From the NCBI RefSeq assembly GCF_017303155.1, contig NZ_JAEKJR010000002.1, forward strand, positions 1 through 64,000: a stretch of DNA of 64,000 nt. Reading direction: 5' to 3'. The DNA is from Microbulbifer salipaludis. Its GTDB lineage: Bacteria; Pseudomonadota; Gammaproteobacteria; Pseudomonadales; Cellvibrionaceae. Every line of letters starts with the position of its first letter. Positions within the stretch are counted from its first letter, which is position 1. The notes beneath the pieces were generated by a model. It saw nothing but the letters and a program-made list of their open reading frames with translations, searched no databases and was not told the origin of the DNA. Shown here one piece after another: positions 32,250 to 59,164 of the stretch. A program made the translations under genes and the position numbers.

Positions 32250-35213
32250 ATGAATAGAACAGCCGGATTCAAGAAGAAGTCCATTGCTGTGGCGATTGCC
32301 GCCATGGCAGGAATCAACAGCCAGGCATTTGCCCAGAGCGAGGGTGATGCCGCTCTGGAAGAAGTGGTGGTAACCGGTATCCGTGGCAGCCTCGAGCAGT
32401 CAATGGATATCAAGCGCGATGCCCAGGGGGTGGTGGATGCCATCTCCGCGGAAGATATCGGTAAGTTCCCCGATACCAACCTGGCGGAATCTCTGCAGCG
32501 TATCACCGGTGTGTCAATCGACCGCCAGAACGGTGAAGGCAGTCGTGTGACCGTGCGCGGTTTTGGTCCTGACTATAACGTCGTGACCCTGAATGGTCGC
32601 CAGATGCCGGCGGCAAACCTGGAAGGTGGAACTGCCTCTTCCTCTCGCTCCTTCGACTTTGCCAATCTGGCAGCTGAAAGTGTGAGCGGCGTTGACGTGT
32701 TCAAGACCGGTCGTGCGAACCAGCCAACGGGCGGTATCGGTTCCGTGATCAACGTGCGCACCCTGCGCCCGCTGGATCAGTCCGACACGGTCCTGAAGCT
32801 GAGCGCCAAGAGCATGCACGACACCTCCAGCGAGGAAGGTGATTCCGTGACCCCGGAGCTGTCCGGTATTTACAGCGGCAAATTCGCGGACGACACCATC
32901 GGTGTTTCCTTCGCCGGCTCCTTCTCCGAGCGTCATTCCGGTCAGGCTGGCTCCGAAACGGGCCCTGGCTGGTACACCATCCCGGGCGGCCAGTGGGACT
33001 GGGGTTCGGTTAACCCGGGTCACCCGGCTTTTGACAACTTTGAAAACGTACCTCAGGAAGGTGACATCTACTCCATGCCGCGTGGTATCGGTTTCAGCTT
33101 CTCCGAAACCCAGCGTGAGCGTACCAACGCCATCCTGACCCTGCAGTGGGCACCGTCCGACGAGTTCGAAGCGACTCTGGACTATGCCTACGCTGAGCAG
33201 GACGTTGAGCACCAGTACAATGCCATGGGTGCCTGGTTCAATGGCAACCCTGAATCCGGTTCCTTTACCGAAGGTACTGGCAACGGTAGCGTCGTGGCTC
33301 CCATTGTGTATGTGGATAATAATCCTTGGACCAACAATGATGACGTGACCTTCAATGCGGGCGAATGGGGTACGGTCAACAAAAATGACTCCATCGGCCT
33401 GAACCTGGTCTGGACTCCCCGTGAAGATCTTACCCTTGCGTTCGATTACCACAATTCCAGCGCCGAAAATGGTGCCAAGGACGACCGCGGTACCAACAAC
33501 AATATCGCCGGTGTGCAGTACAACCGTGACGCCACTATTGTCAACTACGGTTATGACCTGCCAACCGTTAACTTCGTGTTTGGCGACGGTCAGGGCTTTG
33601 ATCCTTCCCAGATGCTGACTTCCGGTAACGTGTTTAACAACGCATACATGAAGCACGATATCGAGCAGGCGCGCTTTGACGGTACCTTCGACGTGGATGC
33701 CGGTCCGGTGAAGAGCATCGACTTTGGTATCGGCCGTAGCGAATCCACCAACCGCTCCGCATTCGCCAACGTGCAGAATAACTCCTGGGGTGGCTATGGC
33801 ACCGCTGCCGACTACGACGATTCCCTGTTTGTACAGAAGAGCATGGCGGACGCGTTGCACGATTTCGGCAGCGCCGACAGCTCCGAAATGACCCCGTACT
33901 ACTACGCCTCTGACTTTGAAGGCATGCGTGCTGCCATCGCTGCCATTGCGGCTGCGAACGGCGACGTACTGAGCCCTTGCGGCACTGTGCTTTGTGCCAG
34001 CAACGACTTCAGTACCGATCGTACCGCCATCGAAACCCAGCAGTCTGTTTACGCACAGGTAAACCTGTCCTGGGATGACGCTGCTATGCCAATGAACCTG
34101 GCTGTGGGTTTGCGCATGGAAGACACCAAGGTAGATGCCACGGCGAAAGTGCCGACCTATGAGTCCATTTCTTGGGTGGGCGACAATGAATTTTTTGCCA
34201 ACGCCAATGGGGAAACCTTTGAGCGTCGTGAGGGTGCCTATCTCAACTGGCTGCCGAACATCGATTTCGATATTCAGGTTAGGGAAGACGTGGTTGCACG
34301 TGCCTCTATCAGCAAGACCATTACCCGTCCAGGTTATGGCGATATTCAGGGTGGGCAAACTATTGCACCGCTATTGAGGGCTGAGGGTGGCACCTCGAAT
34401 CTGGGTAACCCAGATCTGGATCCGTTTGAGTCCACCAACTTCGACCTCTCTGCCGAGTGGTACTACGATGAAGGCAGCTATGTCTCCTTGGGTTACTACA
34501 GCAAAGACGTAGACAACTTCATCGGTCAGACTTCGTATCAAGAGCCTACCTTCGACTTGGCGCATCCATTTAATGGTCCGCGCTACCAGGAGGTTGTTGC
34601 CGATTTGGGGGCCGGTGCGACGACGCAGGAAATTCGTGAAGAGTTAAACGCACGCTACGGCGATCCTTTCACCGGTTCCGCGGACGCGGGCGATGCATCA
34701 GCCATGTTTACTGTTATCACTCCGGTCAACGCTAAGACTGCCGGGATTGACGGCATCGAATTCGCGGTACAGCACATGTTCGCGGATACAGGCTTCGGTA
34801 CGCAGTTCAACTTCACCACGGTTGATGGCGACATCGCCTACGACAACTTCAACACCAACAAGGGTGAGGGTGTCGAAAACCAGTTTGCACTGCTCGGCCT
34901 GAGTGATTCCGCGAACCTTGTCGGCTTCTATGACAAGAACGGAATTCAGGCGCGTATTGCCTACAACTGGCGCGATGACTTCCTGGCTGGTACGTTCGAC
35001 GGTAACGGCGAGCGCAACCCGGTATACGTTGCGTCTTACGGCCAGTGGGATGCCAGCGCAAGCTACGACGTGCAGGACAACCTCACCGTGTTCTTCGAAG
35101 GCATCAACCTGACCAACGAGACCAAGCGTCTGTACGGTCGTCATGAAAACATGATGATTGGCGCCTACCAGACCGGTGCTCGCTACAACCTGGGTGTGAG
35201 TTACAGCTTCTAA
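32250..35213 (+). CDS. TonB-dependent receptor for carbohydrate (receptor 1)
   Basis: This 987-aa outer-membrane receptor imports oligosaccharides using TonB energy. GGGGGAG lies eight bases before the ATG. A signal peptide ends in SQAFA, followed by the TonB box region (LEEVVVTGIRGSLEQSMDIKRD), the plug (ISAEDIGKFPDTNLAESLQRITGVSIDR, key residues quoted in part; then VTVRGFGPDYNVVTLNGRQMP) and a 22-strand barrel ending in YNLGVSYSF with terminal Phe. The GIRGSL/IKRDA/ISAEDIGKFPD pattern is the Caulobacter/Xanthomonas carbohydrate receptor type. There is no SusD partner. It heads the halogenase-cupin-glucanase block and carries the locus operator motif upstream. Confidence 0.93.
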   Translation: MNRTAGFKKKSIAVAIAAMAGINSQAFAQSEGDAALEEVVVTGIRGSLEQSMDIKRDAQGVVDAISAEDIGKFPDTNLAESLQRITGVSIDRQNGEGSRVTVRGFGPDYNVVTLNGRQMPAANLEGGTASSSRSFDFANLAAESVSGVDVFKTGRANQPTGGIGSVINVRTLRPLDQSDTVLKLSAKSMHDTSSEEGDSVTPELSGIYSGKFADDTIGVSFAGSFSERHSGQAGSETGPGWYTIPGGQWDWGSVNPGHPAFDNFENVPQEGDIYSMPRGIGFSFSETQRERTNAILTLQWAPSDEFEATLDYAYAEQDVEHQYNAMGAWFNGNPESGSFTEGTGNGSVVAPIVYVDNNPWTNNDDVTFNAGEWGTVNKNDSIGLNLVWTPREDLTLAFDYHNSSAENGAKDDRGTNNNIAGVQYNRDATIVNYGYDLPTVNFVFGDGQGFDPSQMLTSGNVFNNAYMKHDIEQARFDGTFDVDAGPVKSIDFGIGRSESTNRSAFANVQNNSWGGYGTAADYDDSLFVQKSMADALHDFGSADSSEMTPYYYASDFEGMRAAIAAIAAANGDVLSPCGTVLCASNDFSTDRTAIETQQSVYAQVNLSWDDAAMPMNLAVGLRMEDTKVDATAKVPTYESISWVGDNEFFANANGETFERREGAYLNWLPNIDFDIQVREDVVARASISKTITRPGYGDIQGGQTIAPLLRAEGGTSNLGNPDLDPFESTNFDLSAEWYYDEGSYVSLGYYSKDVDNFIGQTSYQEPTFDLAHPFNGPRYQEVVADLGAGATTQEIREELNARYGDPFTGSADAGDASAMFTVITPVNAKTAGIDGIEFAVQHMFADTGFGTQFNFTTVDGDIAYDNFNTNKGEGVENQFALLGLSDSANLVGFYDKNGIQARIAYNWRDDFLAGTFDGNGERNPVYVASYGQWDASASYDVQDNLTVFFEGINLTNETKRLYGRHENMMIGAYQTGARYNLGVSYSF

Positions 35214-35293: not shown

Positions 35294-35325
35294 GAATTAA
35301 GTCCTTGAAGTGGGGGGGCTCCACA

Positions 35326-37898: not shown

Positions 37899-37930
37899 GC
37901 CTGACAGCAGACGCTGAAGCGGAGAGAGAT

Positions 37931-39493: not shown

Positions 39494-39598
39494 ATTTGCA
39501 TTCCCTGCACGCGATAAAACCTCCTGCTGATACGCCAAACCAGCGTATCGATAATGGCGATTGCCAGAAGAACAATAATTTTCGGTGAGGGATTATCC

Positions 39599-41149
39599 AT
39601 GTTTCAATGTTTTACAAAAAAACACCTGCCAGCCTGTGCCCTCGGGTTGTCGTTGCTGATTAGCGGTTGTGGCGGTAGCAGCGGTGGTGGCAACGATGTA
39701 GCCGACGTTCCTGTGGCGCCGGTGCTCCCTGAGCGCCCGGAACCATGCTTGGAGGATCCGCTCAACTCGGGCTACTGCCTGGTGTGGGCGGATGAATTCT
39801 CTGGGGATGCCATTGATGCCGGCAAGTGGTCGCACGAAAAGAATTGCGTGGGCGGCGGTAACAATGAGGCGCAGTGCTACGTAGAAGCTACCGAAAACGC
39901 CTGGGTCGCCGACGACCTGTTGCACATCAAGGCGATTCGCAAAGACGCCGAGGGGCCCAATCGATTTGATGATGACCCCGCCTACGATCCCAATGACACC
40001 AGCGGCAGCGGTACTTATACCTCGGCGCGTTTGCGCACCAAGGGGCTGGGAGACTGGAAATACGGCCGCTTCGAAATGCGGGCGAAATTACCGCAGGGGC
40101 AGGGCAGTTGGCCGGCATTCTGGATGCTGCCGACCGAAGGCGTATACGGCGGTTGGCCACTCTCCGGCGAAATCGACATTGTTGAGGCGGTGAACCTCAA
40201 AGTTGGTGGTGAAGACAAGGTGCATGGCACCCTGCATTACGGGGGCAGCTGGCCCGGCAATAAATATTCCGGTGAGGCTTATCAAATTCCCGGTGGCGTG
40301 AATCCAGCGGATGACTTCCACACCTACGCGGTGGAATGGGAGGAGGGGGAAGTGCGCTGGTATGTGGATGGCGACCACTATGCAACGCAGACCAGCGCGG
40401 GGTGGTACACCACCGCGGATCTGGAAAACCCGCTGGCTCCGTTTGATCAGAGCTTCCATCTGATCCTGAATCTCGCTGTGGGCGGCGATTGGCCTGCGAA
40501 CGTGAATGACACGGGTATCGACGAAAGCGCGTTTCCACAGGAGTTCGTGGTCGACTATGTTCGTGTTTATCAGTGCAGTGAAGACTTTACGACGGGCAAA
40601 GGCTGTGGCTCGAGTGATGGTGACTTCGTACTAAACCCCGGTACTCAACCACCTGCGGCGCCGGATAGCGACAACAATGCGCTGGTCCTCTTTGATGGAG
40701 AAGCGAAAGCTCCATACTCCTGGTTTACCTGGACGGCGAGTGGTGACATCGATTACACGGTGATCGATGCCGGTGATGACTATGGCGACGTTGCCCAGCT
40801 GACCTACAACACCAACCAGGGCATCGGTTATCTTCAGTCAGAAGCAGCCTACAATCTGAGCGCCTTCACCTACGTTGAATTTGACCTTCGGGTGCAGGCG
40901 GAACCATCCGATCCAGGCTCCGCCTCCCTCACGTTTCGCGCAGATTGTGTCCACCCGTGCTCGTCCGGTGATTATTCCCTCGATATGCCAGCACTGGGGG
41001 TATGGACGCATTTTCAAATTCCGGTAATGGATCTGGCCGGTGGTGGACTCAACACCGCCAGTGTAAACACGCCGTTTGTCATCTCTCCCGGGTGGGACAA
41101 CCAGCTCGGCGCCGTGCTGCAGTTGGACAATATCCAATGGGTTAAGTAA
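39599..41149 (+). CDS. GH16 endo-beta-1,3-glucanase lipoprotein (laminarinase)
   Basis: This 516-aa protein is assigned the ATG at 39599, with GAGG upstream and a lipoprotein signal whose lipobox is LISGC; an upstream Met 15 codons earlier has no signal character. After a Gly/Ser linker, the GH16 domain (about 60-330) carries the catalytic signature GEIDIVEAVN with E191, D193 and E196, plus WPAFWMLP. The typical laminarinase residues are present, and nothing marks it as an agarase or carrageenase. The C-terminal 150 residues (LVLFDGEAKAPYSWFTW to LQLDNIQWVK) look like an ExoP-type carbohydrate-binding domain. It is probably anchored in the outer membrane and makes oligosaccharides for the receptors. 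Confidence 0.9.
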   Translation: MFQCFTKKHLPACALGLSLLISGCGGSSGGGNDVADVPVAPVLPERPEPCLEDPLNSGYCLVWADEFSGDAIDAGKWSHEKNCVGGGNNEAQCYVEATENAWVADDLLHIKAIRKDAEGPNRFDDDPAYDPNDTSGSGTYTSARLRTKGLGDWKYGRFEMRAKLPQGQGSWPAFWMLPTEGVYGGWPLSGEIDIVEAVNLKVGGEDKVHGTLHYGGSWPGNKYSGEAYQIPGGVNPADDFHTYAVEWEEGEVRWYVDGDHYATQTSAGWYTTADLENPLAPFDQSFHLILNLAVGGDWPANVNDTGIDESAFPQEFVVDYVRVYQCSEDFTTGKGCGSSDGDFVLNPGTQPPAAPDSDNNALVLFDGEAKAPYSWFTWTASGDIDYTVIDAGDDYGDVAQLTYNTNQGIGYLQSEAAYNLSAFTYVEFDLRVQAEPSDPGSASLTFRADCVHPCSSGDYSLDMPALGVWTHFQIPVMDLAGGGLNTASVNTPFVISPGWDNQLGAVLQLDNIQWVK

Positions 41150-41351: not shown

Positions 41352-44300
41352 ATGACACAAAAACAATCGAATGCTGTGCGGTTGCGCAGCGCTCTTGTAT
41401 TTTCAGGTTGCCTGCTGGCTGCAGGTGTTTCTCAGGTCTCCACAGCCGGTGTTGACTACTCCGACGTTGGCGAAATCCTGTGGGAAGAAAACTTTAATGA
41501 AATTAGTGCCTCGACCTGGAATCTGGTTGAGGGAGACGGATGTGCGTACGGTGCCGATCTCTGCGGCTGGGGCAACCAGGAGTTGCAATGGTATGCCGCG
41601 GAAAACGTTGCAGTAGAAGATATCCCGGGAGAGCCGGGAAACAAGGCCCTGACCCTCACGGCGCTCAATGAGTCCGTTGCCAGCAGTGCCTTTACCTCGG
41701 GCAAAGTGGACTCAAAGGGCAAGCTCGCCATTCAGTACGGCATGATCGAAACCCGCCTGCGCGTGCCCCAGGTGGGAACCGGTTTGTGGCCTGCTGCCTG
41801 GTTACTTGGTACGAGCACGGCGACCTGGCCGGCGAATGGCGAGATCGACATGATGGAAATGGGCCATCGTGCACAAGCCATGGTCGATGCGGGCCACCCC
41901 GGTGCGGATGTGAACAGCTATGTGGGCTCCAATGCGATTTTCTATGCGGAGGCGGCCTGCTCCGAGGGTAATCCGACCTGTGCCGCAAGCACGGCCTGGC
42001 AAACGGACAATGCTTATGTAGCGGAAACGCCGCTATCAGACCGTTTTGTCATCTATCGCACCTATTGGACCGACACCGAATTGCGCTTCACCGTGGTGGA
42101 CAACGGTGTCGAGCATGACCTGTATGCTGCGCCAATCAATATTGGTGAGGGGATGGAGGAGTTTAAGGCTCCCTTCTATCTGTTACTCAACCTGGCGGTG
42201 GGCGGCAACTTTACCGATGCGGCGACCGCCGGCGATGTGACCGCGCCCTTGCCCGGCAAGATGTACGTGGACTATGTGCGCGTCTATGAATTGAGCGGTC
42301 TGGGACAGGTCACCTTCGGGGGCAGCGCACCCGAAACCGGTGACTTCGGCGTGTTTACTGACACAACGCCGGTTGATGGCGGTCTCGAAGCTGGTGTCAG
42401 CGCCGATATCTATGTATGGAATGCGGCGTCGGTTTCGGCAGGTACGGAAGCTCCCTTTGAAGGAAGCAATGTCATCGCCTGGGACTACACCACACCGGGC
42501 GCCTGGTTTGGCGGCGGTATTGACAGCCGACAAGCGCTGGATATGGGCAACTACGAAGATGCGGCGTTAAATTTCCGTATCAAGATTCCGGCAGAGGTTG
42601 CGTTCAAGGTGGGCATTAAAGACACCCATGGCAACGAAAGCTGGGTGAGTTTCCCGGCACAAACTACCACCCATGGGCTGGTACGTGACGGTAGCTGGGG
42701 TGCAGCCAGTATTCCGCTGGCACAGCTGCGCAGCGCTGAACTCGATCTGACCTCGATGCAGGGAATGTTCTATCTCGCCAGCGAAGATGAGAGCCTGCCC
42801 ACCGCGACATTCTCCATGGCGGTAGACGATATCGTCTGGGCCGGCGGCGCACAGCTGCCTGCGGACAGTGATGGCGATGGTGTGAATGACAGCCTCGATC
42901 AATGCGCGTCTACGCCGGCAGGTACAGTCGTCGATGCCAGTGGCTGCCCGTTGCCAACGCAACTGCGTATAGAGGCAGAGGATTACGCGCGCTTTTTTGA
43001 TACCACCGCGGGTAACACGGGCGGTGCCTGTCGCAATGACGATGTCGACCTGGAAGCCACTACGGACATCGGCGGTGGCTGTAATCTCGGCTATGTGGCT
43101 GCCGGCGAGTGGCTGGAATACGACTTTGCCCTGGCGGCTGGAACCTACCGTATGACCAGCCGGGTTGCTTCACAAAATGGCGGTGCCGGCTACTCCCTGT
43201 CGATCGACGGTAACAGTGTGGCGAACGGCAGCGTGCCTGCCACCGGCGGGTGGCAGAGCTGGCAATCCCAGGACCTCGGTACACTCAGCCTGGACGGCAA
43301 TCACAGTTTGCGGGTGTCCATTGATGGTGGGGAGTTCAATCTCAACTGGATTGAGTTTACGCCGGTCGCGGCAGATACCGATGGTGACGGCGTTGCCGAT
43401 GGTTCCGATCTATGTCCAAACACACCCGCGGGCGTGAGTGTCGATGACGACGGCTGCGAATTGCAGTCCGGCGCCTACGGCGTACGTCAGACCAGCGCGA
43501 ACACCGCGGAATTCTTCGTCAATAGCGACTACTGGGCCATTGTGCATTACAGCGTAAACGGCGGTGCCGAAAACAATGTAAGTATGGTGCAGGCGAGTGG
43601 TATCAATACCTATTCGGTGACCGGATTACAGGCCGGTGATCAGCTCACTTACTGGTTTACCTATAACACGCCTACCGGTGCAGTCGATACCTATCCGGGT
43701 GAACCCAAGGGTAGTTTCACGCTGGCTGCGGGCACTACAGATTCTGACGGTGATGGCATTGACGACAGTGCAGACCAGTGCCCTGGCACCGCGCAAGGTG
43801 TCGCCGTCGACAGCAGTGGTTGCGCAATACCACCTGCGGATTCTGATGGGGATGGTGTGGCCGATAGTAGTGATCAGTGTCCGGGCACCGCACAGGGTGT
43901 CGCGGTGGATGCCACCGGCTGCCCACTGCCTCCGTCGGATAGTGACGGGGATGGCGTGGCCGACACCAATGACCTGTGTCCGAATACACCACAAGGTGCC
44001 AGCGTTGATGGTGATGGTTGTGAAGTGGTGTCCCAGAGCTTTGGTATTACCCAGATTGATAGCAGTCAGGTTCGCTTCTATGTCAGCGATGCCGCTTGGG
44101 CAGTCGTGCACTACAGCATTAACGGCGGTGCCGAGCAGAACGTGAGCATGAACGCGGATGGTGCGGACCAGATCCTGAATGTAGGAGGCCTCGCCGTTGG
44201 TGACACTATCAGTTACTGGTACACCTATGATAGTGGCACCGGTGCCGTCGATACTTTCCCCGCAGATCCAAAATATACCTTCACGTTGACCGGTGCTTCC

Positions 44301-46814
44301 GATGTGGACGGCGATGGCGTGATGGATAGCATCGATCAGTGCCCCATGACGCCGCCCGGCACGCCGGTGGATGCCTCCGGCTGCCCGTTGACGACCTCTG
44401 ACAGCGATGGCGATGGCGTGGTCGATGCCAGTGACCTGTGCCCCGAAACACCGACAGATACCGCAGTCGATACTGATGGTTGCCCTGTGGCTGTGGCCGA
44501 TAGCGATGGCGATGGGGTGGCAGACACCGTAGATGCCTGCCCGAACACCCCGGCGCAAACCCCTGTGGATGCGCAAGGCTGTGCATTGGCACCGGCATCT
44601 GAAGAAGTTGCCGTGAACGGTAATCTGCTGGTTGGCGGTGCCGACTCCCCATTACCCGGTTACGCCTTGTATGTGTTCGACAATGATGTGGGTAGCAGTA
44701 GTTGCTACGACAGCTGCGCCAGCAACTGGCCGCCGCTACTTGTGTCCGATGGTCTCGCCTCCGGTGCCGCCGGTCTCGGCAGCGTGCAACGGAATGACGG
44801 CAACTGGCAGGTGACCTACGACGGCCGGCCGCTGTACTTTTACGCCGGTGACAGTGCGGCCGCACAGACCAACGGCGATGGTATCGGTGGTGTTTGGTGG
44901 CTGGCTGTCTATAACCCGCAAACACTGTCGGTGGTACCGCTGTTTGATGCGACTACTGCGCTGGAACCTGCCATCAAGTTCGATCGCGGCGACGCTTTGA
45001 TTACGCGCTTTTCCGACCGTGCACGCGACCGTCATGCCAAGGAAGACCATTTCCAGGCCTACGATCACTACCTGAGCTTCTACTGGGAAGACCGCACCGC
45101 GGGCATCGAAATTATCGACGAGGTTGCCAACGGTGGTGATACGGTTCGCATGAACGTGCGCACGGAGTTTCGCCTGAGTGATACCGAAGCGGAGAACCGC
45201 TGGTTCTATCGCGGCGTGGGCACCGTGGCCGAGTATTGCGACAACGGCGTGATGAACGTGGTGGACCAGTACAATTATTACAAGGAGCGCAGTTTTAATT
45301 GCCGGGAAAATCGCCCGATACAGGTGGGTGACCTGCTGGAATTCGAGATCAGCCAGTTCCTGGATCCCAGCGTACCCAATGGTCGTGCGAACTACTACGG
45401 CACCACTTTCCTGTACATCGTGGGTGAAGGCCTGGTGCCCTGGGATGTGGGTGGCGCGACACCGTTCGGCGGGGTTAAGGACTCCTTTAAAATTCCCGAA
45501 AGTGCCTGGCTGGGGGGCGACACCACGATTCATGCGCTGACCTCCGGTGAGACCGACAACCACTTTATGCAGATGGCAACCAATACGGGTTACGACAATG
45601 CGCAGCCTTTCATGCGTGGTCGCCGAGTCCTGCATACGTCGGCCATTGACGGTGTGCACGATGAAAAGCCACTTGAAAACCCACCGCTGCAGGACATGGT
45701 TGGTCTTGCGGGTCCGCACTATGTGAATGACAGCTGTGCCAGCTGCCATGAACGTAATGGCCGCGCCGCACCTGCCCCTGTTGGTGAGCCGCTGGACAAG
45801 TGGGCATTTAAAGTGGCCGATGCCAACGGCAACCCACACCCCTTCCTTGGCAGTGCGCTGCAATCCAAAGCGCGGGATGGCGCTGTGAGTGAAGGCGATG
45901 TCTCCATCGCATTCTGGACCGAGCAAGACGGATTGCGTTCGCCTAACTATGCCTTTACTGGTATCACCCCGGAGCGCTTCTCGGCCCGTATCGCACCCAA
46001 CCTCGTCGGTATGGGGCTGCTGGAAGCCATTGCAGAGTCTTCGATATTGACCAACGAAGATCCCGAGGACAGCAATGGCGACGGGATCTCTGGCCGTGCA
46101 AACCGCGTGCTGGACCCCGAAACCGGTGATCTGCGTCTGGGGCGCTTCGGCTGGAAGGCGGGGGCAGTGAGTATTCGCCATCAGTTGGCCCGCGCACTCA
46201 ATACCGATATGGGCGTGATGACCGCGGTACTGCCGCAGCCAGATTGTGGCGACAGCCAAACGGATTGCGGCACGCCCGGTGCGGAACTGGCCGACGAGCA
46301 CCTGCGTGACCTCACCAAGTACATTGCCTTGTTGGGTGTGCGTCCTCAGCGCGACTATGACAACCCGGTAGTACAAAACGGCGAACAACTGTTTACCAGT
46401 ATTGGCTGTGCGGATTGCCACACGCCCACCCAGCAAACCAGTGCATTCCACCCCCTGGCGGAACTGCGCAACCAGACCATTCATCCCTATACGGATCTAC
46501 TGCTGCACGATATGGGGCCGGGTCTTGCGGACAATCTGGGTGAAGGCGAGGCCAATGGTGCGGAATGGCGGACTACGCCCCTGTGGGGCCTGGGGCTTTC
46601 CGCCTGTGTGACGGGTGGCGTGGAGAACCCGACCGGCGGGCAGGGCAATGAAGTGTGTACGCCGGTACACAGCTACCTGCATGACGGCCGCGCACGCACA
46701 ATCGAGGAGGCAATCCTGTGGCATGGCGGTGAAGCGCAGAGCGCGAACACGGCCTACCAGAACTTGTCAGCCCAGGATCGCAATGCCGTGCTGGAATTCC
46801 TCAAGTCACTCTAG
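41352..46814 (+). CDS. Secreted laminarinase fused to glucan-binding modules and a di-haem oxidoreductase
   Basis: This 1820-aa protein has a signal peptide (about 1-32). Domains in order: GH16 (33-315, catalytic GEIDMMEMG with E164, D166, E169); a beta-sandwich CBM-like module (320-496); a TSP3-like Asp-rich linker; CBM6 (538-673, IEAEDYARF to FNLNWIEF); linker; CBM56-like (707-795); linker; a second CBM56-like (896-975); linker; a Yx[FWY]xxD secreted repeat (1083-1180, YALYVFDNDVGSSSCYDSCASNWPP in part); and a DHOR-type region (1200-1820). The last has two haem sites, CASCH at 1462-1466 and CADCH at 1686-1690. It would bind and cut beta-1,3-glucan while carrying a peroxidase or electron-transfer module. 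The Asp-rich linkers probably bind calcium. Module limits are approximate. Confidence 0.88.
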   Translation: MTQKQSNAVRLRSALVFSGCLLAAGVSQVSTAGVDYSDVGEILWEENFNEISASTWNLVEGDGCAYGADLCGWGNQELQWYAAENVAVEDIPGEPGNKALTLTALNESVASSAFTSGKVDSKGKLAIQYGMIETRLRVPQVGTGLWPAAWLLGTSTATWPANGEIDMMEMGHRAQAMVDAGHPGADVNSYVGSNAIFYAEAACSEGNPTCAASTAWQTDNAYVAETPLSDRFVIYRTYWTDTELRFTVVDNGVEHDLYAAPINIGEGMEEFKAPFYLLLNLAVGGNFTDAATAGDVTAPLPGKMYVDYVRVYELSGLGQVTFGGSAPETGDFGVFTDTTPVDGGLEAGVSADIYVWNAASVSAGTEAPFEGSNVIAWDYTTPGAWFGGGIDSRQALDMGNYEDAALNFRIKIPAEVAFKVGIKDTHGNESWVSFPAQTTTHGLVRDGSWGAASIPLAQLRSAELDLTSMQGMFYLASEDESLPTATFSMAVDDIVWAGGAQLPADSDGDGVNDSLDQCASTPAGTVVDASGCPLPTQLRIEAEDYARFFDTTAGNTGGACRNDDVDLEATTDIGGGCNLGYVAAGEWLEYDFALAAGTYRMTSRVASQNGGAGYSLSIDGNSVANGSVPATGGWQSWQSQDLGTLSLDGNHSLRVSIDGGEFNLNWIEFTPVAADTDGDGVADGSDLCPNTPAGVSVDDDGCELQSGAYGVRQTSANTAEFFVNSDYWAIVHYSVNGGAENNVSMVQASGINTYSVTGLQAGDQLTYWFTYNTPTGAVDTYPGEPKGSFTLAAGTTDSDGDGIDDSADQCPGTAQGVAVDSSGCAIPPADSDGDGVADSSDQCPGTAQGVAVDATGCPLPPSDSDGDGVADTNDLCPNTPQGASVDGDGCEVVSQSFGITQIDSSQVRFYVSDAAWAVVHYSINGGAEQNVSMNADGADQILNVGGLAVGDTISYWYTYDSGTGAVDTFPADPKYTFTLTGASDVDGDGVMDSIDQCPMTPPGTPVDASGCPLTTSDSDGDGVVDASDLCPETPTDTAVDTDGCPVAVADSDGDGVADTVDACPNTPAQTPVDAQGCALAPASEEVAVNGNLLVGGADSPLPGYALYVFDNDVGSSSCYDSCASNWPPLLVSDGLASGAAGLGSVQRNDGNWQVTYDGRPLYFYAGDSAAAQTNGDGIGGVWWLAVYNPQTLSVVPLFDATTALEPAIKFDRGDALITRFSDRARDRHAKEDHFQAYDHYLSFYWEDRTAGIEIIDEVANGGDTVRMNVRTEFRLSDTEAENRWFYRGVGTVAEYCDNGVMNVVDQYNYYKERSFNCRENRPIQVGDLLEFEISQFLDPSVPNGRANYYGTTFLYIVGEGLVPWDVGGATPFGGVKDSFKIPESAWLGGDTTIHALTSGETDNHFMQMATNTGYDNAQPFMRGRRVLHTSAIDGVHDEKPLENPPLQDMVGLAGPHYVNDSCASCHERNGRAAPAPVGEPLDKWAFKVADANGNPHPFLGSALQSKARDGAVSEGDVSIAFWTEQDGLRSPNYAFTGITPERFSARIAPNLVGMGLLEAIAESSILTNEDPEDSNGDGISGRANRVLDPETGDLRLGRFGWKAGAVSIRHQLARALNTDMGVMTAVLPQPDCGDSQTDCGTPGAELADEHLRDLTKYIALLGVRPQRDYDNPVVQNGEQLFTSIGCADCHTPTQQTSAFHPLAELRNQTIHPYTDLLLHDMGPGLADNLGEGEANGAEWRTTPLWGLGLSACVTGGVENPTGGQGNEVCTPVHSYLHDGRARTIEEAILWHGGEAQSANTAYQNLSAQDRNAVLEFLKSL

Positions 46815-46898: not shown

Positions 46899-47993
46899 AT
46901 GATTTCTTTCCTTTTTTATTCTCTTGTTTCTACAGGTGCGGCGCCGTCGGTGTTGCCTGCAGAGCTTGATTACTTCGACCCTGCCCAACGATCGCATGCG
47001 CTCGGTCCTTTGATTGAGAGCCTGGGAGAGGGCAGTGATTTTCAGGAGCTTCACAGCTTTCTGGTATATCGGCATGGCAAGGTCGTAGCGGAACAATATT
47101 ATTCGGGCAATGCGGATTACATCGATTTTCCCGGCGGGTTAGAGCGTATCGCGATAGCGGATCGCAAGCAGTGGTCGGCTTCAGATCCGCACTATGTCGC
47201 ATCGGTAAACAAAAGTGTGACTGCACTGCTCACTGGCATATGGTTGAGCGAACAGGGAAGAACAACGAAGCAGACGCTTGCCCCTTTGTTGCCGGAATAT
47301 CAGGCCTATTTTTCCGGTTCTAAAAAATCTGCATTGTCGGTGCACCATATTCTATCGATGCAGACCGGTTTTTCATGGGATGAGTGGGATGGTGATGATT
47401 TGGTGCAATTGTGGCGATCCAACGATTTCGCCAGTTTTTTATTGAGCCAAGAAAATTCCGGACCCGGAAGAGAGTGGCGCTATAACAGCGCGGCCCTGAA
47501 CCTGCTGTTTGAGGCCATTCAAGGGACACTTCCGATACCACTGGACGAGTGGGCCACGCGCCGGCTCTATCATCCCATGGGCATTACCGACTTTGAGTGG
47601 GGCAGGCAACCCAACGGTGTTGCGGAGGCTTCGGCTCGGCTGTTTCTGCTCCCGCGGGACATGTTGAAGCTGGGTGTGCTTATTTTGCAGGAGGGGTACT
47701 GGGAAGGTAAGCAACTCGTGCCCTCACTGTGGATTCGGCAGATGTGCTCGGTTCAGGCTGAGGGGCCAGCGGGTTTTTATGGTTATGGAATTTGGTTGCG
47801 AGAAATCAATGGCATCCCCGTATGCACTGCCGAAGGCGACGGCGGGCAGTACATCCATGTCATTGCGGAAAAAGAGCTGGTTGTAGTGATGACCCAGGGA
47901 AACTATCTGCAGTGGCCACTCTATCGCGAGCAATCAGACACAATTTTGCGCAGGCTGCTGGAGGCCCTGGAAGGGCCTGCGCCTGACTCCTAG
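46899..47993 (+). CDS. Serine hydrolase of the class C beta-lactamase fold
   Basis: This 364-aa protein has a short hydrophobic N-terminus (MISFLFYSLVSTGAAP) that may act as a signal peptide. It carries the active-site SxxK as SVNK in YVASVNKSVTALLTG and the second motif YxN as YNS in WRYNSAALNLLFEA; a KTG-like third element is not clear (GDGG in CTAEGDGGQYIHV lies at that place). The family includes esterases, D-aminopeptidases and transpeptidase-like enzymes as well as lactamases. It lies between two glucanase genes on the same strand, so an esterase acting on decorated glucan is possible but unproven. The GC content is lower than in its neighbours. Confidence 0.78.
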   Translation: MISFLFYSLVSTGAAPSVLPAELDYFDPAQRSHALGPLIESLGEGSDFQELHSFLVYRHGKVVAEQYYSGNADYIDFPGGLERIAIADRKQWSASDPHYVASVNKSVTALLTGIWLSEQGRTTKQTLAPLLPEYQAYFSGSKKSALSVHHILSMQTGFSWDEWDGDDLVQLWRSNDFASFLLSQENSGPGREWRYNSAALNLLFEAIQGTLPIPLDEWATRRLYHPMGITDFEWGRQPNGVAEASARLFLLPRDMLKLGVLILQEGYWEGKQLVPSLWIRQMCSVQAEGPAGFYGYGIWLREINGIPVCTAEGDGGQYIHVIAEKELVVVMTQGNYLQWPLYREQSDTILRRLLEALEGPAPDS

Positions 47994-48033: not shown

Positions 48034-51000
48034 ATGGATAAGCGAAAAATGGAAATCTACTCAAATTCGATAGCTTTGCTCAGGCAAAGTTGGAACGTCA
48101 TCTTTAGCGTCGTTTCGCTATGTTTTTTAAGCATAAGTACACACCTCTCAGCCCAGGACTGGGAAATCGAACAGGTCGGTGCCGGCTCTATCAGCCATGA
48201 AAGGGTGGGGTCGCAGTTTTTCAACTGGGTCGAAGGAGATCGGGCAGACCGCAGCCCACCCACACAAGTTTATCTCACAGACAATTTTTCCGGCCCGATC
48301 CCCAGTAACGACTGGGCCAGTTCGCTGATTGTCGATCGCTACTCCAAGGCGCTGCACGCACATCCGTTAGCCTACCGAGCAACCGCCGATGGGTTTGAAG
48401 TTTCAATGCCGCCGGTGACCATAGGCCCAGTAGATACCATGGGGGAAACCTCGGTGCGACGTACCCATGGTGAACATGTAGACCTGTTGATCCAGGGTAA
48501 TAATTTCCAACCACAGGATGCGCGTGTCGATCGCGTTACGGATTGGACCTACGATATCGTAATGGCCACAGACAGCAGGGCGATGGCGGTGACGATCGGG
48601 CATGGCCTGCCCTATGCCTATTTCAGTTTCACAAACACGCAGCCCGTGATCGAACTACTACGAGGCACCCAGCGCGAACTTATGCTGGATGAAGGTAACG
48701 CATTGAAGTTGCGTCTGCTGGACCCGGTAGATAATCAATTCAATTATTACGGTGTATTTCTTCCGGACGGTGCCACGTATACCTGGAATGGTTCCAGCCT
48801 GCAGTTGAGCCTGCCAGCCGGACGAAGCTACCTGACCGTTGCCGGGTTGCCCGACGACAGTGCAGCAACCTGGGCGCTGTTTAAAAGCCGCGCATATAAC
48901 GTGGTTACCGATACCCAAGTGAGCTGGGTGTATGACGAAAGTGACGGCCGCTTGCGGACCACCTACTCGGTAACGACGCAAAATCAGGCAGAAAGTACCG
49001 CGGCCGGTACCGTCTTCGCCCTGTTGCCGCACCAGTGGCGCCATGCCAGTGAACATTACGCGGCACCGGAGTTTGACAGTATTCGTGGGCAGATGAAGCT
49101 GGTGGCGGCGAGCGAGTTCAGTACGAGCATGCCTTATCACGGCATCCTGCCGGAATTGCCGCGACTTGCTACCAGCGAAGGGATAGATACACTCACGGGT
49201 CACCTGACGGATTACTACGGCTACGGATATGGCTTAACCCCCAAGTTTATCCAGCCGGGTGTGGATGGGGCCAATACCGGCTATGACACCTACTGGATGG
49301 GTAAAAACCTGAACCGCCTCTCTGGTCTGGTGGCGATTTCCGACCAGCTTGATGACGCAAATCCGGAGCTTGCGGAAATTACCGGTACCATGTTCGATGC
49401 GTTAAAAGGACAGCTCGAATACTGGTTTAATGCTGGCAAGCCAAACCCGGATAACTACTTTTACTACAACGCCCAGTGGGGCACCTTGATCGGCTACCCA
49501 TCCAGTTACGACACCGATACGGACCTGAACGATCACCACTTCCACTACGGCTATTGGATCAACGCTGCCGCACAAATTGCGTTGCGCGAACCCGGCTGGG
49601 CGGCAACCGAAAACTGGGGCGGCATGGTCTATGAGTTAATTGGTGATATTGCCAACACAGACCGCAACAGTAGCCGCTATCCATTTCTGCGCAATTTCGA
49701 TCCCTACGAGGGGCACTCCTGGGCGTCCGGAGTCGTACCGTATGTGGAAGATGGCTTTTATCCGGAAGGTAACAACAATGAGGCGTCTTCAGAGGCCATC
49801 AATGCCTGGGCCGGCCTGATCCTGTGGGGGGAGGCGGTCGGTGATCGCACCGTGCGCGATCTCGGTATTTACCTGTATGTCCACGAAGTAGAGGCGGCGA
49901 ACACCTACTGGTTCAACCTGTATGGTGATATCGGTCATCCAGACTACCCCAATGAAGAGGTGTCACGCTTGTGGGGCGGTGGCTACGACCACTCTACCTG
50001 GTGGACCGAGGATCCGATTCAGACGCACGGCATCAATATGCTGCCGATCACCGGCGCATCCATGTATCTGGGGCGCGACCGGGAGTTTGTACAGCGCAAC
50101 TACGATGCTATCTGGGCAGAGTACGCGCGCTGGGATGGTGACAACGGGATTTTTGACAAGACGCTGGTGCGAGACCGTTGGCAAGATATCACCAGTAAGT
50201 ACATCGCGTTTGTGAATCCGCAGTTTGCGCTGGATACCTGGAAATCCATAAACGTGGATGAGGATCCGATCAATGGCGTCGATCCCGCTTTGGGTATCGA
50301 ATTTGGCGAGTCCCGCGCGCACACCTACCAACACATAAAAATGCTGGATGACTATGGCCTGCCAGACTTTTCCGTCAGGCCGGTGGAACATGTGCTTGGT
50401 TTTGTATTGAATAAAAATGGCACTCGAACTTATGTCGCCTATAACGCGAGCGATACACCGCGCACCCTGAAATTCAGTGACGGTATGGGGCTTGTCGAAG
50501 TGCCGCCACGCGCTCTTGGTCAGGGTCCGGGTAGTCCTGTGGATATAACGCCACCCGCCGACAGCGATGCAGATGGCGTGCGCGACCGTGACGACCTGTG
50601 CCCGATGACTGCTGCCGGCACCCCGGTAAATGTCGCTGGCTGCCCGGACACCGACGGTGATGGGGTATTCGATAATCTTGACCTCTGCCCCCTCACGCCC
50701 GCGGAAAGTCCGGTGAATACGCAAGGGTGCCCGGACAGTGACGGTGATGGCGTAGCGGATAATAACGATTTGTGTGGTGCGACACCGGAAGGGCAAATAG
50801 TGGATGTGGAGGGTTGTGCAATTCTCGACGACGATGGTGATGGGATACCCGATGCAGTCGATCTCTGCCCGGGTTCTGATCCTGGTATTGAGGTTGACGC
50901 CACCGGTTGTGAAATTACCTACCCGGAACCCGAGGTAGATAGCGATAGCGATGGTGTACCCGACAGCCAGGACCTGTGCCCGGGCACCGCGAGTGGTGCC

Positions 51001-51681
51001 AGCGTGGATGCCACCGGCTGCGTTGTTGAGCCAGTGCTGTGGGGGCTGGCAGAAGCAGGCGAGGGGCAGGGCATACTGTTTCTTAATACAACCGGTTGGG
51101 CCGACGCCCATTACCGCATCAATGCCGGTGCGCAGCTGAATGTTCGTATGCAGCAGACTGGTATTCGTAACGAGTGGGTATTGGAGGGGCTTTCCGAGGG
51201 TGACCAGGTGTCCGTGTTCTTTACCTATCTTGATGGCGAATGCGCGTGCGTCGTTGATAGCGAGCCGGTCACGTTCACCTATGCGGCGGTCTCCCCCGGT
51301 CCTGACGATCCCGTTGATCCGCGGCCCGACAGTGACGCCGATGGCGTTGCTGATGACAATGATCAGTGCCCCGGCACCGTTGCCGGCACCGAGGTGGACA
51401 GCAGCGGTTGCCCTCTGGCAAACGAGGCGCCCTATGGCGCCAACATACTTGGCGGTGGCGTAATGGAGCTGTTTGCTGAGAACACGGCCTGGGCCGACGC
51501 TCATTATCGGGTGAATGGCGGGCAACAGCTAAACGTGCGTATGACGCAGAGCGGGGAGCGCAGCCACTATGCGATCAATGGGCTGGCAAGCGGCGACACG
51601 GTCGATTTTTACTTGACCTATTGGGACCCTGGCTGTGCCTGTGCCGTTGATTCACCCTGGCAGGGGGCCACGTATCCATAA
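48034..51681 (+). CDS. GH81 endo-beta-1,3-glucanase with TSP3 linkers and two CBM56 modules
   Basis: This 1215-aa protein is assigned the ATG at 48034, with AGGG upstream. The signal peptide ends near STHLSAQ. The GH81 catalytic region (about 45-830) contains NNNEASSEAINAW, where E583 and E587 align with the glutamates described for GH81 enzymes, together with DHHFHYGYW. From about 845 there are five to six Asp-rich TSP3-like calcium-binding repeats (DSDADGVRDRDDLCP type), then a CBM56-like module (about 1005-1085), another linker and a second CBM56-like module ending the protein (CACAVDSPWQGATYP). GH81 enzymes cleave laminarin and curdlan internally by inversion. The linker and CBM types are the same as in the GH16-DHOR protein. 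Confidence 0.92.
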   Translation: MDKRKMEIYSNSIALLRQSWNVIFSVVSLCFLSISTHLSAQDWEIEQVGAGSISHERVGSQFFNWVEGDRADRSPPTQVYLTDNFSGPIPSNDWASSLIVDRYSKALHAHPLAYRATADGFEVSMPPVTIGPVDTMGETSVRRTHGEHVDLLIQGNNFQPQDARVDRVTDWTYDIVMATDSRAMAVTIGHGLPYAYFSFTNTQPVIELLRGTQRELMLDEGNALKLRLLDPVDNQFNYYGVFLPDGATYTWNGSSLQLSLPAGRSYLTVAGLPDDSAATWALFKSRAYNVVTDTQVSWVYDESDGRLRTTYSVTTQNQAESTAAGTVFALLPHQWRHASEHYAAPEFDSIRGQMKLVAASEFSTSMPYHGILPELPRLATSEGIDTLTGHLTDYYGYGYGLTPKFIQPGVDGANTGYDTYWMGKNLNRLSGLVAISDQLDDANPELAEITGTMFDALKGQLEYWFNAGKPNPDNYFYYNAQWGTLIGYPSSYDTDTDLNDHHFHYGYWINAAAQIALREPGWAATENWGGMVYELIGDIANTDRNSSRYPFLRNFDPYEGHSWASGVVPYVEDGFYPEGNNNEASSEAINAWAGLILWGEAVGDRTVRDLGIYLYVHEVEAANTYWFNLYGDIGHPDYPNEEVSRLWGGGYDHSTWWTEDPIQTHGINMLPITGASMYLGRDREFVQRNYDAIWAEYARWDGDNGIFDKTLVRDRWQDITSKYIAFVNPQFALDTWKSINVDEDPINGVDPALGIEFGESRAHTYQHIKMLDDYGLPDFSVRPVEHVLGFVLNKNGTRTYVAYNASDTPRTLKFSDGMGLVEVPPRALGQGPGSPVDITPPADSDADGVRDRDDLCPMTAAGTPVNVAGCPDTDGDGVFDNLDLCPLTPAESPVNTQGCPDSDGDGVADNNDLCGATPEGQIVDVEGCAILDDDGDGIPDAVDLCPGSDPGIEVDATGCEITYPEPEVDSDSDGVPDSQDLCPGTASGASVDATGCVVEPVLWGLAEAGEGQGILFLNTTGWADAHYRINAGAQLNVRMQQTGIRNEWVLEGLSEGDQVSVFFTYLDGECACVVDSEPVTFTYAAVSPGPDDPVDPRPDSDADGVADDNDQCPGTVAGTEVDSSGCPLANEAPYGANILGGGVMELFAENTAWADAHYRVNGGQQLNVRMTQSGERSHYAINGLASGDTVDFYLTYWDPGCACAVDSPWQGATYP

Positions 51682-53425: not shown

Positions 53426-55966
53426 ATGGTGTTTAAGAAGCGAATGTTACTGGGGGTCATTTCGGCTCTGGTTGTCGGAGGTGGTCTACTCGGCTGCGCG
53501 GACCAGGCGGGGGATCAGGCAGTGGGCCAACAGGCCGAGTCGGAGCATCCCAGCTGGCCGGCACTGACTTCGGGGATTGCCAAAGATCCCGCGATTGAAT
53601 CACGCATCGACGCATTGCTGGCGCAGATGAGCGTGGAAGAGAAAGTGGGTCAGATGATCCAGGTGGAAATTCGTACGGCCACACCGGAAGAGGTCCGGGA
53701 GTACCACATTGGCTCCATTCTCAACGGTGGTGGTTCCTTCCCCGACAACAACAAGCATGCCAGTGTCGCCGACTGGGTGGCCTTGGCGGATCGTTATTAC
53801 CACGCTTCCATGGATACCAGCGACGGCGGTGTGGCGATTCCCATGATCTGGGGTACCGACGCGGTACACGGCCACAACAACGTGATCGGCGCGACCCTGT
53901 TTCCGCACAATATTGCCCTCGGGGCCACGCACAATCCTGAGCTGATGCGCAAGATTGGTGAAGTGACCGCCGCCGAGGTGTCCGCCACCGGAATCGATTG
54001 GGTGTTTGCCCCCACCCTCGCCGTGACCCGCGATGATCGCTGGGGCCGCAGTTACGAATCCTACTCCGAAGACCCCGAAGTGGTACGCGACTACGCCGGT
54101 GAACTGGTGGAAGGGCTGCAGGGCACCCCGGGCAGTGGTGACCTGCTGCGCGGCAAGTATGTGGTCAGTACGGCCAAGCACTTCCTCGCCGATGGCGGTA
54201 CCGAAAATGGTATCGACCGTGGTGATGCCATGCTCAGCGAGCAGGAGCTGATGGATATCCACGCGCAGGGTTACTTCTCTGCGATCGAGTCCGGCGTGCA
54301 GACGGTGATGGCGTCCTTCAGCAGCTGGAACGGCAAAAAAATGCACGGTCACAAGTATCTGATGACCGATGTGCTGAAGCAGCAGCTGGGCTTTGATGGA
54401 TTCATCATCGGTGACTGGGCTGGTCACCAGTTTGTGAATGGTTGTAGCAATGTGAGCTGCCCGCAGTCCATCAATGCCGGCCTGGATATGTTCATGGCGC
54501 CGGACCCCAGCTGGAAAGAGCTGTTCGCCAATACGGTTGCGCAGGCCAAAAGTGGTGAGATCTCAGCCGAGCGCCTGAACGATGCGGTGCGACGCATCCT
54601 GCGTGTGAAGCTGCGCGCTGGCCTGTTTGACGCCGGTGCGCCTTCCGAGCGCGCTTATGCCGGTGACGAATCCCTGATCGGTGCGCCGGAGCATCGCGCC
54701 ATCGCCCGCCAGGCGGTGCGCGAGTCCCTGGTGCTGCTGAAGAACAACGATGGACTGCTGCCCCTGGCGCGGAACCAGAAGGTGCTGGTGACCGGTGACG
54801 GTGCCGACAACATCGGCAAGCAGTCCGGCGGCTGGAGCGTGACCTGGCAGGGCACCGGCAACCAGAATGCCGATTTCCCCGGCGCCACCTCGGTGTACGG
54901 TGGTATCGCAGAAGCGGTGGAAAGCGCGGGCGGCAGTGTTCAGTTGTCGACAGACGGCAGCTTTGCCACAAAGCCGGATGTGGCCATCGTGGTGTTCGGA
55001 GAAGATCCTTACGCAGAAATGCAGGGCGATGTTTCCAATCTTCGCTACCAGGGCGAGCAAGACCTGGCCCTGATGCAGCGCCTGCGTGCGCAGGGTATCC
55101 CGGTGGTGGGACTGTTCATTACCGGCCGCCCGCTGTGGGTCAATCCGCAGCTCAATGCGAGTGATGCCTTTGCCGTGATCTGGCAGCCGGGTACCGAAGG
55201 CGCGGGTGTGGCGGACGTCATTTTCCGCGATGCGCAGGGTAACGTGCAGTACGACTTCACCGGCAAACTGACCTTCTCCTGGCCGGATGATGCCACCCCG
55301 GTGGTGCGCAACCGCGGTGAAAACGAAGCCCAGGCGCTGTTCCAGTACGGTTACGGCCTCAGCTACAGCGATAGCGTGCAAATGGCCGCGCTTTCCGAAG
55401 AGAGCGGACTGCAGCAGGCGGAAGGCCGCGAGTCCCTGGCGATCTTTAACGGCCGTGCGCTCGACCCCTGGCACTTTCAGGTGGTGGATGCGGCTAACCA
55501 TCAGTCGGTCATCTCCAGCAGTGTGACCAAACTGAACGGTATCAGCGTCAAATCGGTGGACCGCAATGTGCAGGAAGACAGCCGCCGTCTGCAGTGGACT
55601 GGTGAGGGCGATGCCACCGTTGGTTTCTTCGCCAACAGTCGCACCGACCTGTCCCGCTATGCGGCCAACGGTGGGGCGCTGGTATTTGATGTGAAGATCG
55701 ACCGCGCGCCCAGTGATGCGGTGAATATCGGTATCAACTGCGGTATGGACTGCGGGGCAGAGCAAGCGATTACCGAAGTCCTCAGCGGCATGACCGCCGG
55801 CGAGTGGAAAACCGTGGCGGTGGACCTGCAGTGTCTGGCGACTGACGGGGTGAAAATGGACATGGTGCTGTCGCCCTTCTATGTACGTACCGCTGGTGCG
55901 CTGGATATGACCGTACACAACATCCATGTCGCCGCCGATGCGAAGGCCGATATCCATTGCGGGTAA
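53426..55966 (+). CDS. GH3 beta-glucosidase lipoprotein
   Basis: This 846-aa exo-acting glucosidase has a lipoprotein signal with lipobox LLGC. The N-terminal TIM barrel carries IPMIWGTDAVHGHNN, KHFLADGG and the nucleophile D330 in FIIGDWAGHQFVNG. The alpha/beta sandwich with KVLVTGDGADNIGKQSGGW (in part) follows, and the last 160 residues are an ExoP-like carbohydrate-binding domain (ALDPWHFQVVDAANH to VHNIHVAADAKADIHCG). It probably releases glucose from laminarioligosaccharides in the periplasm or at the outer membrane. Upstream inverted operator motifs tie it to the locus. Confidence 0.93.
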   Translation: MVFKKRMLLGVISALVVGGGLLGCADQAGDQAVGQQAESEHPSWPALTSGIAKDPAIESRIDALLAQMSVEEKVGQMIQVEIRTATPEEVREYHIGSILNGGGSFPDNNKHASVADWVALADRYYHASMDTSDGGVAIPMIWGTDAVHGHNNVIGATLFPHNIALGATHNPELMRKIGEVTAAEVSATGIDWVFAPTLAVTRDDRWGRSYESYSEDPEVVRDYAGELVEGLQGTPGSGDLLRGKYVVSTAKHFLADGGTENGIDRGDAMLSEQELMDIHAQGYFSAIESGVQTVMASFSSWNGKKMHGHKYLMTDVLKQQLGFDGFIIGDWAGHQFVNGCSNVSCPQSINAGLDMFMAPDPSWKELFANTVAQAKSGEISAERLNDAVRRILRVKLRAGLFDAGAPSERAYAGDESLIGAPEHRAIARQAVRESLVLLKNNDGLLPLARNQKVLVTGDGADNIGKQSGGWSVTWQGTGNQNADFPGATSVYGGIAEAVESAGGSVQLSTDGSFATKPDVAIVVFGEDPYAEMQGDVSNLRYQGEQDLALMQRLRAQGIPVVGLFITGRPLWVNPQLNASDAFAVIWQPGTEGAGVADVIFRDAQGNVQYDFTGKLTFSWPDDATPVVRNRGENEAQALFQYGYGLSYSDSVQMAALSEESGLQQAEGRESLAIFNGRALDPWHFQVVDAANHQSVISSSVTKLNGISVKSVDRNVQEDSRRLQWTGEGDATVGFFANSRTDLSRYAANGGALVFDVKIDRAPSDAVNIGINCGMDCGAEQAITEVLSGMTAGEWKTVAVDLQCLATDGVKMDMVLSPFYVRTAGALDMTVHNIHVAADAKADIHCG

Positions 55967-59006: not shown

Positions 59007-59164
59007 CGCCCCGCAATGGTGACCGGGGCCGGCTCCGTTACCTCCTCTACTCCTCTGCCGGCCCCAATTTCTCCCTCCTCCTCCCCCCCTGGGGGTGGAG
59101 GATATGGACTTCGGGTAGGCCTAGGATGGCAGTACTCACCATAACGATAAGTCCAAGGGAGAAG

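Follow-up and report, generated by a model that had tools for sequence, protein, structure and literature searches.

The stretch of Microbulbifer salipaludis DNA considered here (contig NZ_JAEKJR010000002.1, positions 1 to 64,000, a length of 64,000 nucleotides; hereafter the window) encodes a protein in which a GH16 laminarinase, carbohydrate-binding modules and a two-haem c-type module of the DHOR family share one chain. This GH16-DHOR fusion is recurrent rather than isolated, and its predicted haem pocket suggests peroxide chemistry at the surface of a glucan. The gene and its parts are as follows.

41352..46814, + strand: the GH16-CBM6-CBM56x2-TSP3-Lipoprotein_15-NDOM-DHOR protein (open frame and Pfam)
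41352..41447, + strand: probable Sec signal peptide, aa 1-32 (basic start, hydrophobic core, ...STA/GV cleavage point; judged by eye)
41454..42305, + strand: GH16 laminarinase catalytic domain, aa 35-318 (PDB laminarinases; phmmer across relatives)
41841..41858, + strand: GH16 active-site motif EIDMME, aa 164-169 (E164/D166/E169; ExDxxE)
42306..42956, + strand: module spanning aa 319-535, about 217 residues (left blank in the domain map; no Pfam family matches at E 0.01)
43032..43361, + strand: CBM6, aa 561-670 (Pfam 1e-19)
43476..43691, + strand: first CBM56 copy, aa 709-780 (Pfam 7.5e-41, in two stretches)
43728..44036, + strand: TSP3-type DxDGDG repeats between the CBM56 copies, aa 793-895 (TSP_3 9.8e-23; extent by eye)
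44037..44285, + strand: second CBM56 copy, aa 896-978 (phmmer comparison with relatives; one of the two Pfam stretches)
44604..44936, + strand: Lipoprotein_15 or Yx(FWY)xxD domain, aa 1085-1195 (Pfam 8.8e-16)
44967..45701, + strand: NDOM, an undescribed domain preceding the first haem site, aa 1206-1450 (its first part predicted as a beta-sandwich)
45735..45749, + strand: haem 1 site CASCH, aa 1462-1466 (CXXCH motif)
45978..46811, + strand: DHOR, PF06537, aa 1543-1820 (Pfam 9.4e-64)
46143..46214, + strand: segment aligned with WDGR...EQA...EM of bacterial cytochrome c peroxidase (bCCP), aa 1598-1621, including Gln1611 and Asp1619
46407..46421, + strand: haem 2 site CADCH, aa 1686-1690 (CXXCH motif)
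46512..46514, + strand: Met1721 of the HDMG motif, a candidate sixth ligand (Met in 239/241 aligned rows)

The frame is uninterrupted from ATG to stop and specifies 1820 amino acids. The first-pass annotation of this DNA had read a GH16 domain with E164/D166/E169, CBM6, two CBM56-like modules, a Yx[FWY]xxD repeat and DHOR in a single frame, with haem sites at 1462 and 1686; each of these is borne out, the haem sites exactly, and no frameshift or stop parts the binding modules from the haem part. By homology and motif the catalytic domain is a GH16 laminarinase, predicted to cleave laminarin: solved GH16 laminarinases match aa 40-313 (E ~1e-26, PDB sequence search), and the protein has a Pfam SKN1_KRE6 match at 1.8e-10. 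Judging by its sequence, the protein is probably secreted and held on glucan by its binding modules. A gap similar in size to the unmatched aa 319-535 module also follows GH16 in many relatives. Within Lipoprotein_15, C1118, C1122, Y1107, D1112, W1126, Y1162 and D1167 are invariant in 78/78 aligned rows. The module order is the same in two database proteins named Microbulbifer agarilyticus, P0002 and P0003 (on contigs of 106,617 and 97,212 bases), which are 94% and 93% identical to the window protein over the haem region and carry one and two CBM56 copies, respectively; an assembly fusion is thus unlikely, and with the same architecture in many other relatives, assembly error or chance joining is ruled out as the source of the fusion.

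The DHOR match scores 216 bits against a gathering cut-off of 22 and is confined to positions 212-499 of the 499-position profile. The first-pass annotation had proposed looking for DHOR across aa 1200-1820; the family assignment holds, but for aa 1543-1820 only, and aa 1200-1452, the NDOM region, has no Pfam hit at a threshold as loose as E 1. Some relatives also match the DHOR profile at about 3-90, around haem 1. The predicted fold of NDOM may resemble a CBM56-like beta-sandwich; its other fold matches are mostly to antibody and Ig folds, with further ones to isoamylase (7.3-7.5) and some glycosidases. Profile comparison by hhalign detected no sequence link of NDOM to CBM56 (probability 0.6%) or to Lipoprotein_15.

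Fold prediction tentatively places the haem part with di-haem cytochrome c peroxidase/MauG. Taken from the window protein alone it has no PDB relative by sequence at E 10, a 19-row profile of it gives cytochrome and bCCP matches in PDB that are weak or partial, and PF03150 (bCCP/MauG) is not among the protein's Pfam matches at E 0.01. Gln1611 and Asp1619 align near, but not identically to, the Gln/Glu pair of bCCP/MauG peroxidases: the acid is Asp at Gln+8, where those enzymes have Glu at +10. The HDMG Met is missing in six proteins with short haem spacing (L051, L052 twice, L053, L150 and L151), in which a Met precedes HDG instead; Met positions follow no single rule in L056-L059, and most bCCPs aligned have Phe at this position. 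Because the pattern is so uneven, the idea of a Met ligand is not pressed, and haem attachment and ligands in the window module are putative.

Relatives of the haem module are numerous, and hardly any have been studied. Searching with aa 1235-1820 among proteins some 1001-3185 aa long, with 7991 candidates scored, brought up 1043 proteins. In all 120 listed, the window's own included, NDOM and the haem part are both present, exactly two CXXCH motifs lie 221-230 apart, and the pocket Gln and both CXXCH are kept at identities down to 57%. The survey for GH16 and DHOR on one chain that the first-pass annotation had proposed is answered in the affirmative: phmmer with the window GH16 as seed finds GH16 in at least 53 of these 120 proteins and GH81 in four. 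These counts are lower bounds, since proteins such as P0044 and P0047 scored without a hydrolase yet show PF00722 in the database column. With a second GH16 seed added and the proteins of both searches pooled, at least 76 of 159 carry GH16, four GH81, one a TIM-barrel hydrolase and 78 none. Among 82 open reading frames (ORFs) in 80 genome loci, at least 23 carry GH16, two GH3 and 57 none. By Pfam, L100 and L102 are indeed GH3-DHOR fusions, and P0153 has GH2_C/GH72-like barrels. Read from stop to stop, L100:5900-12238 (2113 aa) and L102:3833-12238 (2802 aa) each combine GH3, CBM6, Lipoprotein_15 and the di-haem module. Some of the members read carry binding modules without a hydrolase, many members have CBM6 or F5/8-type modules, and Lipoprotein_15 shares a chain with the haem module in 40/80 loci. 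Hydrolase and haem on one chain had been called unusual; the pairing is real, but it recurs in these relatives, and a GH26-DHOR protein has been published (PMC9638140).

Scanning 84,980 species genomes for the pattern turned up relatives at 214 loci, of which 80 were kept. Nearly all are titled as Gammaproteobacteria (Microbulbifer, Gilvimarinus, Cellvibrio, Reinekea, Colwellia, Rheinheimera, Paraglaciecola and others), the exceptions being metagenome-assembled genomes titled Planctomycetota, Mariprofundus, Paucimonas or uncultured bacterium. NDOM occurs in 3/369 genomes of an even draw of the class, the window's own included, and NDOM matches occur in 8/8 Gilvimarinus genomes, whose frames are only partly read by Pfam.

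The annotated neighbours of the fusion gene, which also include two AraC regulators, suggest a beta-1,3-glucan utilisation locus.

32250..35213, + strand: TonB-dependent receptor
35305-39424 and 62050-63540: tryptophan-halogenase-like genes (PF04820; three in total) and Cupin_8
39554..41149, + strand: second GH16, with Exop_C, the upstream neighbour (Pfam)
46899-47993: hydrolase of serine beta-lactamase fold, encoded between GH16-DHOR and GH81 (Pfam)
48034..51681, + strand: GH81 with two CBM56 (Pfam)
53426..55966, + strand: GH3
57978 (start): glucokinase
59126..61930, + strand: second TonB-dependent receptor

Elsewhere in the window, 3482-12039 encodes two proteins of very large size, whose domains include OmpA, SpaA/prealbumin-like and DUF11-type ones, and SBP_bac_1 and BPD_transp_1, a solute-binding protein and an ABC permease domain, share one frame at 28748-30997. 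The genome holds no DHOR besides that of the window protein and no PF03150 peroxidase at E 0.001.

A tree built with FastTree from 241 rows (159 of 160 proteins, P0138 failing the filters, and the 82 ORFs from 80 loci) nests the window protein, together with P0002 and P0003, among nine Microbulbifer haem proteins in which no hydrolase was found, with successive node supports of 89, 95 and 100. Within 10 kb of these sister genes (L061-L069), Cupin_8 and a tryptophan-halogenase-like gene occur in 8/9 loci, and a TonB receptor, GH16 and GH3 in 7/9 each; L069 shows none of the five, and L068 has no GH16 or GH3 in the available DNA. The shared neighbours suggest that in this Microbulbifer clade the haem protein is usually a member of a laminarin-type locus, and on the sequences compared, the locus haem protein is fused with GH16 in the window lineage and stands alone from GH16 in the sisters. 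Over the whole tree the presence of a hydrolase changes at least 25 times, against a mean of 78 and a minimum of 63 in 200 label shuffles, so gain or loss is frequent yet non-random, in a direction that cannot be read. Outside the Microbulbifer clade neighbours are mixed. No conserved operon was seen there among 96 flanking ORFs from 26 loci (25 of them outside Microbulbifer; 96 of 127 picked ORFs used, some of which may not be genes); five carry GH16, two GH3, and the rest scattered families. Frames above 1100 aa were excluded from this set, so large receptors and GH81 are under-counted.

Two further groups of DHOR proteins lie beside this family. A second branch, in Microbulbifer and Gilvimarinus, has a haem spacing of 112 or 135; of five members read by Pfam, four carry the beta-1,3-xylan-binding CBM31 (L051:876-3878, L052:2453-5353, L150 and L151) and the fifth carries Lipoprotein_15; L053, compared by BLAST only, resembles this fifth protein. 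NDOM was not found in the 112-spaced proteins and is partial and weak in L150 and L151. The L052 gene lies near TonB receptor, sugar transporter, GFO/IDH/MocA and AraC genes. Directly after the short-spaced DHOR gene, L052:17218-19251 and L053:5394-7424 encode proteins of 676-677 aa, one without a Pfam match at E 1e-4 and its counterpart with CBM6. Six long DHOR proteins (L031, L032, L043, L047, L049 and L050) make up a third group, which falls outside the 221-230 spacing set: their haem spacing is 249-267 and their NDOM divergent, and the three with Pfam readings (L031, L032 and L043) carry F5/8-type modules. The CBM31 branch, together with the published GH26 1,3-xylanase Xyn65, suggests that DHOR modules of this kind may accompany beta-1,3-linked glycans generally; against such generality stand the many CBM6 and F5/8 members without a known target.

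The window module is best read as carrying out peroxide chemistry anchored on glucan, with a bCCP-type haem pocket, a reading to which we give a probability of about one half. A secreted beta-1,3-glucanase would be held on laminarin-type glucan by CBM6 and CBM56, and flexible TSP3 linkers would lead to a c-type di-haem enzyme belonging to the DHOR branch of the presumed bCCP/MauG fold. Haem attachment would take place in the periplasm, before export of the folded protein; the genome has matches to CcmE and, at two places, to T2SSC. Haem 1 would be the reactive haem, with Gln1611 and Asp1619 about at the place of the bCCP/MauG Gln/Glu pair, and haem 2 is probably a Met-ligated relay. In bCCP and MauG this pair is needed for H2O2 activation. 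The predicted position of Gln1611 and Asp1619 on the distal side of haem 1 makes peroxide chemistry the most likely activity of the module. H2O2 might be either removed, for instance from an alga's defence, or used to oxidise a substrate at the glucan, which might be glycan, phenolics or a partner. Among the three roles first suggested for the haem part (electron supply to oxidative enzymes, peroxide destruction and oxidation of sugar ends), that of peroxide is the best supported, through the predicted fold and the retained Gln/acid pair.

The module might instead oxidise beta-1,3-glucan chains or ends with H2O2 or O2, in the manner of a lytic polysaccharide monooxygenase (LPMO), while the hydrolase works on the loosened chain. 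To our knowledge, no di-haem bCCP-type enzyme oxidises polysaccharide, and we regard this alternative as rather unlikely. It draws on the recurrence of the module with beta-1,3-glycan hydrolases and binders (GH16, GH81, CBM56, GH3, the CBM31 branch and the GH26 of Xyn65), on the predicted CBM56-like beta-sandwich of NDOM beside haem 1, and on the module-bearing genomes in which no AA10 LPMO was found. For Cbp2D and Cbp2E of Cellvibrio, direct cleavage of cellulose through a novel mechanism has been suggested (PMC12542752). Weighing against glycan oxidation are the undetectable sequence similarity between NDOM and CBM56 and, again, the many members whose F5/8-type or CBM6 modules have no known target. 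Doubtful to the same degree is the wider proposal that NDOM-DHOR would form a new carbohydrate-active redox class, a di-haem oxidase or peroxygenase acting on laminarin and, via the CBM31 sister branch, on beta-1,3-xylan, which would provide an oxidative arm without AA10 LPMOs and have been joined separately to GH16, GH81, GH3, a TIM-barrel hydrolase and, in Xyn65, GH26.

Feeding electrons to an LPMO on a different chain, the role suggested for Cbp2D-type cytochromes, is improbable, and as a conserved role of the module it is rejected. An AA10 LPMO is present in 32 of 48 module-bearing genomes (drawn from the 80 loci, mostly isolates, of unstated completeness) and lacking in 16; it is also lacking in five of 16 order-level relatives with the module, all five at least 97% complete, although one of these (G053) has divergent copies only. 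Within the genus, 11/14 genomes with the module and 12/23 without it have an LPMO, a difference that is not significant (p 0.17) and in which G004, with DHOR and an NDOM piece in different frames, is counted as module-less. PF03067 appears in the Pfam column of 0/160 listed relatives. The M. salipaludis genome has a single LPMO_10 (AA10) match, on another contig, so none is encoded in the window, as the first-pass annotation had observed. An isolated X183 domain of Cbp2D could start LPMO reduction (PMC12542752), but X183 domains from Teredinibacter gave LPMOs no electrons under the conditions tried (PMC10916295).

Extracellular electron transfer, in which Lipoprotein_15 and the haems pass electrons to or from a partner or mineral, is likewise a slim prospect. 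The sharing of one chain by Lipoprotein_15 and the haem module and the two invariant Cys of the former would suit it, but Lipoprotein_15 is missing from half of the loci and a wire would not need a bCCP-like Gln/acid pocket. That the DHOR fold is haem-less, or only binds glycan or steadies the chain, is listed as a possibility by the authors of Xyn65, which was active when made in Escherichia coli without its signal peptide (PMC9638140), but it is very improbable here, because full retention of both CXXCH and the pocket Gln across the listed relatives is not expected of a dead domain.

A recurrent haem module with a near-invariant pocket on beta-1,3-glycan enzymes would imply one of two things: degraders have to cope with peroxide where they meet the polysaccharide, or an oxidative route exists that needs no LPMO. 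Laminarin ranks among the largest marine carbon stores, and the usual view of its breakdown is a hydrolytic one.

Among known systems, the window module shares with bCCP/MauG (PF03150) two CXXCH, a predicted distal Gln and acid, and an xHDG near the C-terminus, and may share their fold, as predicted. It differs in Ala at the pocket Pro, Asp at +8, the lack of a PF03150 match, the extra NDOM and its place on a glucanase. Classic DHOR proteins (PF06537, about 500 aa) have the same HDMG...EWRT.PLWG...LHDGRAR...EA(I/V)LWHGGE-type C-terminus and, in 7/8 read, the Gln+8 acid motif; unlike the window module, they match nearly the whole profile and have a haem spacing of 254-274, and their frames of 473-536 aa leave no room for carbohydrate-active enzyme modules. 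DUF1111 has been named a di-haem peroxidase family beside imelysin-like genes (PMC3143127). Cbp2D, Cbp2E, TERTU_2913 and TERTU_3803 resemble the window protein as extracellular, mostly CBM-bearing proteins with c-type cytochrome domains from related polysaccharide degraders, but their domains are X183, X158 and X122, and the term DHOR was not found in the literature checked on them. In the open-licence PMC literature searched, no report of GH16-DHOR or GH81-DHOR was found, and nothing on the function of Lipoprotein_15 or DUF1111/thiol oxidoreductase in a laminarin or CBM setting.

The closest counterpart is Xyn65 of Gilvimarinus xylanilyticus, a GH26-CBM31-CBM6-Big-DHOR xylanase and, at 82.3%, the most abundant of four secreted 1,3-xylanases; its authors remark that DHOR domains had not previously been found in glycoside hydrolases (PMC9638140). 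It resembles the window protein as a secreted enzyme from the sea that acts on a beta-1,3-linked polysaccharide and has binding modules and a C-terminal DHOR; its catalytic domain is GH26 instead of GH16 (PMC9638140). This DHOR may group with the short-spaced CBM31 branch. The breadth of the family, with four kinds of catalytic partner, is not apparent from the published work found; the architecture of a hydrolase joined to DHOR is already known from Xyn65 but uncharacterised, and the GH16 version appears to be new.
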